Assembly: GCA_017453125.1 (NCBI GenBank)
Contig: JAFTKS010000019.1
Location: 1 to 64,000, forward strand
Reading direction: 5' to 3'
Source: Clostridia bacterium
GTDB taxonomy: Bacteria; Bacillota; Clostridia; Christensenellales; UBA1242
DNA length: 64,000 nucleotides
Under the pieces are notes generated by a model. The model had not been told where the DNA came from, searched no databases, and saw only the letters and a list, made by a program, of their open reading frames with translations. Position numbers and translations under genes: made by a program. Below are positions 33,698 to 61,932 of the stretch, piece after piece (the stretch's first letter is position 1; each line of letters starts with the position of its first letter).

Positions 33698-33772
33698 GCG
33701 GGAGTGGCTCAGTGGTAGAGCGTCGCCTTGCCAAGGCGAATGTCGCGAGTTCGAATCTCGTCTTCCGCTCCA
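33698..33772 (+). tRNA. tRNA-Gly (anticodon GCC)
   Basis: The 75-nt gene folds as a full cloverleaf. Acceptor GCGGGAG pairs with CTTCCGC (one G-U), the anticodon stem-loop is GCCTTGCCAAGGC, the T arm is GCGAGTTCGAATCTCGT, and CCA is encoded. Its 3' end is the founder of the tandem array that follows directly. Confidence 0.97.
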
Positions 33773-34297
33773 ATCTAAGACCTCGTGTGAGGTCTTTTTT
33801 TTTCGCTTAATGACGAGATTCTATAGACTAACGTCTATATATCTACGATATGAACTCGCTAATTCGCGTGTGCTCGTTTTTACAAAACGAGGGCGATCGC
33901 AAGCTTTTGATAAAATCTTGCTCGGCAACGAACACGTCTTCCGCTCCAATCTAAGACCTCGTGTGAGGTCTTTTTTTTCGCTTAATGACGAGATTCTATA
34001 GACTAACGTCTATATATCTACGATATGAACTCGTTAATTCGCGTGTACTCGTTTTTGCAAAACGAGGGCGTTCGCAAGCTTTTGATAAAATCTTGCTCGG
34101 CAACGAACACGTCTTCCGCTCCAATCTAAGACCTCGAATGAGGTCTTTTTTTTGCTTGATGACGAGATTCTATAGACTAACGTCTATATATCTACGATAT
34201 GAACTCGCTAATTCGCGTGTACTCGTTTTTGCAAAACGAGGGCGTTCGCAAGCTTTTGATAAAATCTCGCTCGGCGACGAACACGTCTTCCGCTCCA
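33773..34297 (+). repeat. Tandem array of three ~175-bp units carrying tRNA-Gly fragments
   Basis: The units span 33773-33948 (176 bp), 33949-34123 (175) and 34124-34297 (174) and are about 95% alike. Each starts with ATCTAAGACCTCG and a terminator hairpin (AGACCTC/GAGGTCT plus Ts). Next come GACGAGATTC, about 30 nt containing the hairpin TATAGAC-TAAC-GTCTATA, and GAACTCGC. A second hairpin CTCGTTTT/AAAACGAG follows, and the unit ends with a copy of the tRNA-Gly 3' end, CGTCTTCCGCTCCA. The two flanking pieces are exactly the two halves of the antisense tRNA-Gly T arm (GACGAGATTCGAACTCGC), split by the hairpin insert. A decayed fourth unit start follows at 34298. Confidence 0.93.
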
Positions 34298-34334
34298 ATC
34301 TAAAACTTTTAATTAGTATTTTATGTAAAGTAAA

Positions 34335-35716: not shown

Positions 35717-35791
35717 GGCACCATAGCCAAGCGGTAAGGCCCGGGTCTGCAAAACCCTCATGCCTCAGTTCGAATCTGAGTGGTGCCTCCA
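35717..35791 (+). tRNA. tRNA-Cys (anticodon GCA)
   Basis: The 75-nt gene: acceptor GGCACCA pairs with TGGTGCC, anticodon loop TCTGCAA, T arm CAGTTCGAATCTG, CCA encoded. It precedes tRNA-Leu by 47 bp. Confidence 0.97.
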
Positions 35792-35838: not shown

Positions 35839-35925
35839 GCTGGTGTGGCGAAATCGGCAGACGCACAGGACTTAAAATCCTGCGGTGTAACAACCGTACC
35901 AGTTCAAGTCTGGTCACCAGCACCA
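35839..35925 (+). tRNA. tRNA-Leu (anticodon TAA)
   Basis: The 87-nt class II tRNA: acceptor GCTGGTG pairs with CACCAGC, anticodon loop CTTAAAA, a variable arm (CGGTGTAACAACCG), T arm CCAGTTCAAGTCTGG, CCA encoded. Its 3' end is repeated in the array that follows. Confidence 0.97.
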
Positions 35926-36291
35926 AAAATGCGAACGATAAGTTCGCTTTTTTTGTTTCAGTGACCAGTATGTGCAACGCACATTTTTTTCTAACGAAAA
36001 AACTTGAACAGTATTCGTCGCATACCAGTACAAGTACTTATGCTCCGAAATTACTCATTTTATTCGTAAGGCAAGTCGTGGTCACCAGCACCAAAATGCG
36101 AACGATAAGTTCTCTTTTTTTGTTTCAGTGACCAGTATGTGCAACGCACATTTTTTTTAACAAAAAACTTGAACAGTATTCGTCGCATACCAGTACAAGC
36201 ACTTATGCTCCGAAATTACTCATTTTATTCGTAAGGCAAGTCGTGGTCATCAGCACCAAAAATGCGAACGATAAGTTCGCTTTTTTTGTTT
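35926..36291 (+). repeat. Tandem array of two ~167-bp units plus a partial one, carrying tRNA-Leu fragments
   Basis: The units span 35926-36093 (168 bp) and 36094-36258 (165 bp); a third copy of the first 33 bp (terminator) ends near 36291. Each unit starts with the terminator GCGAAC-GATAA-GTTCGC and Ts. GTGACCAG follows, then a 34-nt insert with hairpin ATGTGC-AAC-GCACAT and Ts, then CTTGAAC, a T-arm-like TACCAGTACAAGTAC, and finally a copy of the tRNA-Leu 3' end (TGGTCACCAGCACCA; last unit TGGTCATCAGCACCA). GTGACCAG and CTTGAAC are the two parts of the antisense tRNA-Leu T arm. The layout matches the tRNA-Gly array although the sequences are unrelated. Confidence 0.93.
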
Positions 36292-59992: not shown

Positions 59993-61932
59993 TTAGTACC
60001 ATCAACAAAAACATAACAATCTTGAGAAGTTGAATTACCATACAAGTAATAAACTTTATTATTTATGGTACAAATAGAGCCATAAAAAATAGAACTAGCG
60101 TTATTTAAATTAACTTTAACCCAAGTTTCAGTTTCTTTATCTAACATATAATTTAAATCTTTTTTATTAGAAGAAAGATAGATATTATCACCGTCTGACC
60201 ATAATACAGTACCCATAGAAGAATTAACACCATTCCAAACTTTGGTATACCAAGTAAGTGTATTTTTATCTAATATATAATGGGTTTGTCCATTTGAATA
60301 ATAAGTATTTTCTCCATCTGACCAAATATGCGCAGCATTAATTGGAGTAAAACCATTAAACGTAACAACATTCCAAGTTCTAGTAGATTTATCTAAAATA
60401 TATTGATTAGAATTTAGAGATAAATAATAATTTTCCCCATCTGACCATACATAACCAGCCCTAAAAGAACTTACGCCATAAAAAGTAACTTCGTTCCAAG
60501 TATCAGTAGATTTATCTAAAATATATTGTTTTGAGTTATTAGAATAAAAAACATTATCTCCGTCAGACCATATATACAAACCAATTATATAAGAATACCC
60601 ATACCATTGTTTTTGTTTCCAAGTATTAGTTTCTTTATCTAAATAATAATTTACTTCTCCATTAGAAAAATAATCAATTCCGTCATAATTCCAAAAAGAA
60701 TTATAACTAATACCATTTTCAAACTTTGGTAAACCAACAAATTCGGTTGCTATATCAACTTGATAAAAACCATATTGTAACTCAAATATAGCATAAAAAT
60801 TTGTATTATTATTTATAGAATAAGAAGATAAATCAATAACATTTACACCGTCAACAGACCAACCAATAAAATCATAACCCGATTTAGTTGGAATAGTTGG
60901 AACAACTACATAATTATCATTAACAACAAATTGAGAATTATAAATTTCATTATCTACAACAAAATTAACTAAATATTTATTCGTTACATCTGCAACAATT
61001 TTAACATTTGAAGTAATTTGATATGTATTTAAATCAATTTGTTCACCGTTTACAGTCCAGTAGTTAAAGATTACATAATCAGTAGAAGTTGGATTTACAA
61101 CAGATACTGTATCATTTTTATTTACAATTTGAATATTGTAAACACTACCGTCAAATTCAAAAGTTACAACAACTTGATTATCGTTTTCAAAATTAGCAAT
61201 AAATTCTTCATAATAAGAAATAGAAGATTGAAGTTCTGCAATTTTATTGTTTAAAATAGAAACATTTGAAGAATTAGCAGATACTTGTGTAGTTAAAATA
61301 GAAATTTGATAATTTAAACTATCAATTTGAATATTTAAATCTTCTATAATGCTATTATATAAATTATTTGTATTATTCAGTTGAGTAATAGTACTCTGTA
61401 AATCAGTAATTTGATAAGAATAATTTTCAATAAGTTTATCTTTATATTCAATCACTAAACCACTATTTGTAACAGTATTTTCCAAATTAACAATCTGTGT
61501 ATTTAAATTAGAAATTTGTTTATTTAAATTAGATATTGTATTTTCATTATTTGTTTTAATAGTAGATAAATTATCTACTTGTTCTTCTAAACTAACTTTT
61601 TGATTTTCTAAATTAGTAATTTGTTGTGTATAATCTTTATTACTATTAGTTAATAATGTAACTTGACTATTAAGTTGACTAATTTGATCAGTTTGAGCAG
61701 TTATAGTATCTCTATAACTATCAATTAATTCAGTATAAGATTTTTCATTATCTAGTGCAGTAGAATAGCCGTCTTTATAAGCATTATCAACGTCATCTTT
61801 AGTATATACACCAGTTCCAGATAATCCGTCTTGTACTTTGTTAAAGTTAATAATACCCCAAGACAAAACGAAAGCAAAAGCACCAATAAATAAAATACTA
61901 AATATTATACTTAATACTTTTTTTGTTTCCAT
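59989..61932 (-). CDS. Virion tip/adhesin-like protein: coiled-coil stalk, two InlB-type repeats, six-blade propeller-like domain
   Basis: The 647-residue protein has an N-terminal membrane span (about 7-28). A coiled coil (about 60-250) consists almost entirely of repeated Ile/Leu/Asn/Gln heptads with SQLNSQV and NKQISNLNTQI. Two Listeria-Bacteroides repeats follow (about 254-316 and 321-383; each ends with a WTVNG or WSVDG then ANV/YAIF-type strand). Six repeats of about 42 residues (about 410-647) then have the core WSDG(E/D)NxYxS…YxLDKxTxTW, resembling Kelch-type blades. This fits an attachment protein in the place of pIII. AAGGAGAAATT precedes the ATG. Binding to a host surface target is inferred. 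Confidence 0.72.
   Translation of the reverse strand: METKKVLSIIFSILFIGAFAFVLSWGIINFNKVQDGLSGTGVYTKDDVDNAYKDGYSTALDNEKSYTELIDSYRDTITAQTDQISQLNSQVTLLTNSNKDYTQQITNLENQKVSLEEQVDNLSTIKTNNENTISNLNKQISNLNTQIVNLENTVTNSGLVIEYKDKLIENYSYQITDLQSTITQLNNTNNLYNSIIEDLNIQIDSLNYQISILTTQVSANSSNVSILNNKIAELQSSISYYEEFIANFENDNQVVVTFEFDGSVYNIQIVNKNDTVSVVNPTSTDYVIFNYWTVNGEQIDLNTYQITSNVKIVADVTNKYLVNFVVDNEIYNSQFVVNDNYVVVPTIPTKSGYDFIGWSVDGVNVIDLSSYSINNNTNFYAIFELQYGFYQVDIATEFVGLPKFENGISYNSFWNYDGIDYFSNGEVNYYLDKETNTWKQKQWYGYSYIIGLYIWSDGDNVFYSNNSKQYILDKSTDTWNEVTFYGVSSFRAGYVWSDGENYYLSLNSNQYILDKSTRTWNVVTFNGFTPINAAHIWSDGENTYYSNGQTHYILDKNTLTWYTKVWNGVNSSMGTVLWSDGDNIYLSSNKKDLNYMLDKETETWVKVNLNNASSIFYGSICTINNKVYYLYGNSTSQDCYVFVDGTK

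Follow-up and report, generated by a model that had tools for sequence, protein, structure and literature searches.

Structured repeat units built from host tRNA 3' ends behind tRNA-Leu and many other final tRNAs in a Clostridia bacterium and its relatives

Background

What is the repeated DNA that follows the tRNA-Leu gene on contig JAFTKS010000019.1 (GenBank assembly GCA_017453125.1) of a Clostridia bacterium of the Christensenellales? The window analysed here is the whole stretch of 64,000 nucleotides (positions 1 to 64,000, forward strand), in which two transfer RNA (tRNA) genes, tRNA-Gly and tRNA-Leu, are each followed by a tandem array whose units contain antisense and sense pieces of that same tRNA. 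An earlier, sequence-only reading had argued that one design at two loci points to a mechanism rather than chance, and had named a mini-element using tRNA 3' ends and a functional trailer RNA as candidates. We found that the mechanism is strongly supported, as the design recurs at many tRNAs and transfer-messenger RNAs (tmRNAs) of this genome, of the genus and of other genera of the family; between the two candidates the evidence favours the mini-element and does not settle the choice. The units form a real, widespread and structured class of elements in a group of uncultured bacteria of the gut, and a strong extension of a known oddity, the 178-bp repeats behind Escherichia coli tyrT, which were described decades ago. 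Mobile units would represent a new use of tRNA ends as insertion platforms, and units that act as RNAs would be a large unrecognised class of tRNA trailers; with a tyrT-like layout following roughly half of all eligible tRNA genes in four genomes, their sequence variety and covariation make structure, strand and spread testable.

Anatomy of the Leu array

The second array, behind tRNA-Leu, lies where it had first been seen, at 35905-36291, with a period of 165, 2.3 copies and a 95% match according to Tandem Repeats Finder (TRF), and with direct repeats 165-168 apart. Its host, tRNA-Leu(TAA) (35839..35925, ARAGORN and Rfam), is the final tRNA of a transcription unit in which tRNA-Cys (35717-35791) precedes it. 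The layout runs from the tRNA 3' end through an intrinsic terminator, a split antisense T-arm, a split sense T-arm and the 3' end with CCA to the terminator again. The terminator after the CCA end (GCGAAC-GATA-AGTTCGC-TTTTTTT, 35926..35955) is found once more at 36093-36122 and 36259-36289.

Unit 1, as read from sequence and folds, opens with arm a1 (GTGACCAG, 35961..35968), which is antisense to the 3' T-stem/acceptor and pairs with 36079-36093. An insert in the antisense T-arm follows (35969..36001), made of hairpins h1 (ATGTGC-AAC-GCACAT) and h2 (TTTTTTC-TAAC-GAAAAAA), and then arm a2 (ACTTGAAC, 36002..36009), antisense to the T-loop and 5' T-stem. The sense copy begins with s2 (TACCAGTACAAGT, 36023..36035), a copy of the 5' T-arm, is interrupted within the T-loop by the h3/h4 region (36036..36078), and ends with s1 (TGGTCACCAGCACCA, 36079..36093), the copy of the tRNA 3' end identified by its direct-repeat family. 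Unit 2 (36122..36258), a second copy recognised by direct repeats, TRF and fold, closes with s1 at 36244-36258 carrying one C>T change. The tRNA, terminator and arms are given on the plus strand, the inserts and unit 2 without strand. The previously described order of terminator, antisense half, hairpin insert, other half, spacer and sense 3' end was thus correct in outline; the insert holds two hairpins rather than one, and the "spacer with stems" does contain stems, with two additional hairpins breaking the sense copy itself at the T-loop. The Gly array (33759-34303, period 175, 3.1 copies by TRF) follows the same plan, and the similarity of repeat periods noted earlier is confirmed.

Predicted fold, covariation and strand preference

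Each unit carries an antisense (a1..a2) and a sense (s2..s1) copy of the T-arm/acceptor half of its host, both split at the T-loop by hairpin pairs, and because the two copies stand in one unit, one strand is predicted to fold into an a1:s1 stem around a ring of hairpins. RNAfold returned a near-uniform shape, in which the outer stem a1:s1 (antisense against sense tRNA 3' end) closes a ring of h1, h2, a2:s2, h3 and h4, a2:s2 being the hairpin of antisense and sense 5' T-stem. Relative to dinucleotide shuffles, the mean z-score of fold stability was -3.3 (57 units). The fold is maintained by covariation: in an alignment of 18 cores, both partners have changed in 10 of the 13 pairs of h3/h4, and covariation scores 0.470, compared with 0.145 in shuffled and at most 0.087 in slid alignments.

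With RNA parameters the bottom strand folds more stably in 52 of 59 units, and with DNA parameters in 50 of 59; terminators at these loci have no strand preference in stability. Short loops of the unit hairpins read TNC/TNNC on the top strand, that is GNA/GNNA on the bottom strand, in 51 cases as compared with 3 of the opposite kind; for terminator loops, bottom-strand GNA/GNNA and the opposite number 2 and 7 (nominal Fisher p 7e-6 for the contrast, with units that are not wholly independent of each other). In DNA hairpins, loops of the GNA and GNNA types are known for their unusual stability. The bias in stability and loops argues, therefore, that in this genus the folded bottom strand is what matters.

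The unit behind tRNA-Ile is built on the anticodon arm instead, with an antisense anticodon-arm copy interrupted at the anticodon. The T-loop and the anticodon loop are alike in being 7-nt loops between inverted repeats, and tRNA-targeting tyrosine recombinases are known to cross over at both. The tRNA-Ile unit (L045, L251) is composite, as the sense copy of this anticodon-arm site additionally holds h3/h4 inserted in the T-loop; in G004, G006 and L251 its top strand has GAA in one of the hairpin loops, opposite to the T-arm units (here and below, G000 is the genome of the window and other G numbers are relatives compared with it).

Distribution over tRNAs, genomes and family

The flanks of 155 tRNAs from five genomes of the genus, 35-36 of them from G000, were scanned and scored positive when they contained a copy of the tRNA's own 3' end, with 15 or more of 20 bases matching, or an antisense stretch that matched over at least 9 bases; as decoys, 3' ends taken from the other tRNAs of that genome were tried at identical positions. 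Positive flanks were found behind 43 of 95 terminator-proximal (last) tRNAs and none of 60 internal ones, which bears out the earlier claim that only the last tRNA of a transcription unit carries an array, and the decoy rates were 1.4% and 2.3%. G000, G004, G006 and G012 together account for 42 positives among 78 last tRNAs, and G009 for one. A carrying tRNA is followed by 1-5 unit copies. Hosts in G000 include Gly, Leu, Tyr, Lys, Ile, Met, Ser(TGA), Ser(CGA), Asn, Arg(ACG) and a decayed Trp; tmRNA 3' ends also serve as hosts, as do some tRNAs missed by ARAGORN (e.g. fMet). The outcome that would have spoken against a mechanism, namely no arrays at other tRNAs and none in relatives, was looked for, and both exist.

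A covariance model of the unit, proposed earlier as a check, matches genus-wide: the model R1, built on the commonest core of the genus, has 9 matches in G000 and 8 to 14 in each of G003, G004, G006 and G012, with nearly none beyond the genus. All in-genus R1 matches whose context was read stand behind a tRNA or tmRNA or terminate in a recognisable tRNA 3' end. In other genera of the family, about 6 of 40 sampled last tRNAs showed the same layout with unrelated hairpins in a looser screen. Unit presence and copy number differ widely among close relatives; units are absent at tRNA-Leu and tRNA-Gly of G005 and at most tRNAs of G009. Where hosts of the core pattern are named, they are metagenome-assembled genomes of uncultured Clostridia, and several of these bear the label Lapin (apparently rabbit). 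Matches to the core pattern in Saprospiraceae, Caballeronia and Laterigemmans adjoin no tRNA and were dismissed as chance, and a search of viral contigs for the pattern gave no match. In G009, a 17.7 kb contig (L122, G009:C32) is densely packed with tRNA genes and an apparent tmRNA, possibly a phage tRNA cluster.

Different tRNAs have units with related cores. Among 62 labelled cores, the nearest other core lies behind a different tRNA in 53 cases and behind the same tRNA of another genome in only 9, with identities across hosts of 95% (G000 Arg and G012 Trp) and 92% (G012 Lys and G004 tmRNA), although the stems match the local tRNA. The two arrays of the window are unrelated in sequence, as first described; in G006, by contrast, the Leu and Gly units hold a common core (GTGACGC..GCTAATTTG..CTGCACC), and most other units of the genus share a different one. 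This kinship among units, together with the single-fold architecture, the bottom-strand preference and the genes between units described below, had escaped the sequence-only reading.

Comparison with known systems

The closest known system is the 178-bp repeat of E. coli tyrT/tyrV with its RtT RNA (RF00391). In both, tandem repeats stand directly behind the last tRNA (period 178 bp in E. coli, 165-175 bp here), every repeat closes with a copy of the tRNA 3' end, and copy number varies between strains; in E. coli an antisense GGGGAAGGAT pairs with the repeated 3' end ATCCTTCCCC and encloses several hairpins. Of 5426 E. coli genomes, 4680 contain RtT, at 1 to 9 places and with six in tandem in one strain; it is annotated as processed from the tyrT transcript; 18 RtT-like places were located on plasmids. 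The E. coli repeat differs in being confined to a single tRNA locus, in lacking a visible exact antisense of the 5' T-stem and a terminator immediately after CCA; its GNA loops lie on the top strand, and neither strand is favoured. The RtT covariance model, which gives 134-138 bits with E. coli control sequences, matched neither the window (gathering score) nor nine loci (E<=5), and no Rfam family covers the units at gathering or at E<=5. Units and RtT share a layout but no detectable sequence homology, and the units are not classed as RtT because the RtT model does not match them. A literature search on RtT structure and tRNA-linked cassettes returned nothing relevant, and no open-access paper explaining the shape of the tyrT repeat was found.

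Integron attC sites resemble the units in topology, the predicted fold following R''-spacer-L''-loop-L'-spacer-R'; tandem arrays, a favoured bottom strand and occasional small genes (e.g. GNAT) between sites are further likenesses. However, the boxes here are made of host tRNA and the spacers are hairpins. The attC boxes RYYYAAC ... GTTRRRY occur in 0 of 47 units (shuffled expectation 0.2), and an integron integrase was not found, the XerS-like enzyme scoring far below the integron-integrase cut-offs and the other phage-type integrases not having been scanned one by one. Repetitive extragenic palindromic elements (REP) and bacterial interspersed mosaic elements (BIME), with their REP-associated tyrosine transposases (RAYT), are likewise small, non-autonomous extragenic hairpin elements at the 3' ends of transcription units, but the arms of our units match tRNAs and the Y1 enzyme does not track them. 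In phages that exploit Xer (CTXphi type), a folded single-stranded attP imitates the bacterial target duplex, as one strand of the units is predicted to do; here the target would be a tRNA T-arm instead of dif, and no phage genome is attached.

A proposed mobile element with a folded site

The reading we prefer, and to which we give even chances, is that the Leu array represents two tandem copies of a small mobile DNA element with a folded site, attached to the 3' end of the final tRNA in a transcription unit. The bottom strand, folded as single-stranded DNA, would be a recombination site of attC-like layout whose boxes are the tRNA T-arm. Units would pass from one tRNA gene to another and build up tandem arrays through recombination across the repeated 3' end, and every unit would restore the 3' end and the terminator; because of this restoration, presumably only the last tRNA of a transcription unit tolerates a unit. 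Genes between units would be cargo, and the recombinase may be the housekeeping Xer or visiting phage integrases. Only tentatively do we extend this to a tRNA-anchored cassette system, in which single-stranded, attC-like sites made from host T-arm copies would let small elements and genes build up and travel downstream of almost any tRNA or tmRNA; the E. coli tyrT repeats would then be a relative restricted to one locus.

Most intervals between units contain no gene. Tandem units with genes in between were seen at G000 Ser and G003 Arg (GNAT acetyltransferase), at G005 Ser and G005 Leu (a CBS-domain protein and a DUF4097 protein) and at G006 Asn (GNAT, peptidase S51 and methyltransferase). The GNAT proteins of G003 (tRNA-Arg) and G006 (tRNA-Asn) are 88% identical, while the Xer proteins of the same species are 68% identical; just three among 60 relatives possess the gene, and the third copy is 61% identical.

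Several points weigh against a mobile element or its cassette extension. DNA similarity between the G003 and G006 GNAT genes stops at the gene and excludes the unit, so the gene moved without its unit; the G005 relative lies in a gene-rich tRNA-Asn region with no further unit near. Genes between units may therefore be ordinary tRNA-hotspot insertions, and for the same reasons the idea that genes are carried with units is no more than plausible from these sequences. Plain cassette exchange does not account for movement between different tRNAs, because exchange would swap the 3' half of the tRNA itself. Neither the E. coli repeat nor two units from other genera have a clear strand bias. No enzyme that would move the units was found: none of the families checked (Y1 and IS110 transposases, reverse transcriptase) tracks them, and a Xer-like recombinase was rejected as a dedicated enzyme, as it occurs order-wide. 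No excision product or movement was seen, and mobility is inferred.

The accessory-gene run behind tRNA-Asn of G005 (L297, G005:C3:90500-101500) encodes a phosphatase-like protein, a nucleoside phosphorylase, three GNATs, a peptidase S51 and a cation efflux protein; homologues lie near tRNAs in G000 and G006, which marks tRNA-Asn as a hotspot.

The individual candidates for a motor were rejected as follows. Y1/RAYT shows no correlation with units, Y1 being absent from the unit-rich G003-G006, and the sole Y1 protein of G000 is encoded by a single IS200-type gene. An IS110 bridge-RNA element was discarded, as no DEDD transposase or IS110 was found anywhere in the genus. Reverse transcriptase is present in G000, G005 and G006 and absent from the unit-rich G003, G004 and G012. 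The one conserved tyrosine recombinase is XerS-like and found throughout the order; phage-type integrases are scattered among genomes. The lone XerS-like gene of G000 (L206, G000:C8:64601-65653) has an in-frame TAA in a conserved part where copies in relatives are intact; this may reflect faulty assembly or a genuine defect.

Alternative explanations

The main rival is a functional trailer RNA, in which read-through past the terminator would yield a structured RNA like RtT with a role in regulating or buffering the maturation of the tRNA, and every unit would close with a tRNA-like 3' end and a terminator. A conserved and covarying structure is what such an RNA would display, many unit copies do have a terminator after them, the carriers are exclusively terminator-proximal tRNAs, and the RtT annotation as a tyrT-transcript product offers a precedent. 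Yet a terminator precedes the unit, loops and stability in the genus favour the strand opposite to the transcript, presence and copy number are highly variable among close relatives, and the unit is combined with whichever tRNA stands before it. On balance we judge the trailer RNA rather improbable.

Quite unlikely, in our view, is that the units are integrase scars or decoys, i.e. attR remnants of phages or islands at the T-loop, or sequences that occupy tRNA-targeting integrases. The T-loop and anticodon loop are classical integrase targets, and two integrated elements adjoin units. A filamentous-phage-like prophage (L244, G003:C3:20000-29000), with an integrase, a Zot-like ATPase and a Rep-like protein, sits in the T-loop of tRNA-Glu, and a genomic island of about 13.8 kb (L240, G000:C12:2000-18000) with a CcrB-like large serine recombinase, an AAA/nuclease-like protein, a NUDIX protein and GNAT genes lies between tRNA-Gln(CTG) and its folded unit. 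But an ordinary attR has neither an antisense copy nor four conserved hairpins, and the attR of the prophage itself is a simple repeat of the 3' end, immediately upstream of an older unit, which lies beyond it. Both the tRNA-Gln island and the tRNA-Glu prophage were considered as giant cassettes; for the prophage this was rejected, as it is an ordinary insertion adjoining a pre-existing unit.

Neutral tandem or inverted duplication of tRNA ends through replication slippage and unequal crossing-over would suit the near-identity of tandem copies and the 1 to 9 places of the E. coli repeat, but is very improbable in the face of compensatory covarying changes, a fixed five-hairpin plan at many unrelated tRNAs and cores shared by different tRNAs.

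The sister array and other repeats

The host of the sister array, tRNA-Gly(GCC) (33698..33772, plus strand, ARAGORN), is the final tRNA of its transcription unit. Its three units, given without strand and delimited by TRF and sequence (unit 1 by its fold as well), lie at 33804..33948, 33979..34123 and 34153..34297, and the third, the last of the array, has no terminator copy after it. In unit 1, a1 (33812-33821), h1 (33822-33839), h2 (about 33839-33851) and a2 (33852-33858) are followed by h3/h4 and by s1 (33935-33948). In G006, two extra tandem fragments of the tRNA-Gly 5' half (GCGGGAGTGGCGGCAGTAAGCGTGGTTGAGCGAGACTTGCCAAGGCGAACGC) with an altered D-arm lie upstream of the genuine tRNA-Gly. 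Elsewhere in the window, TRF detected a 123-bp tandem repeat of about 2 copies, 77% alike, at 60300-60583.
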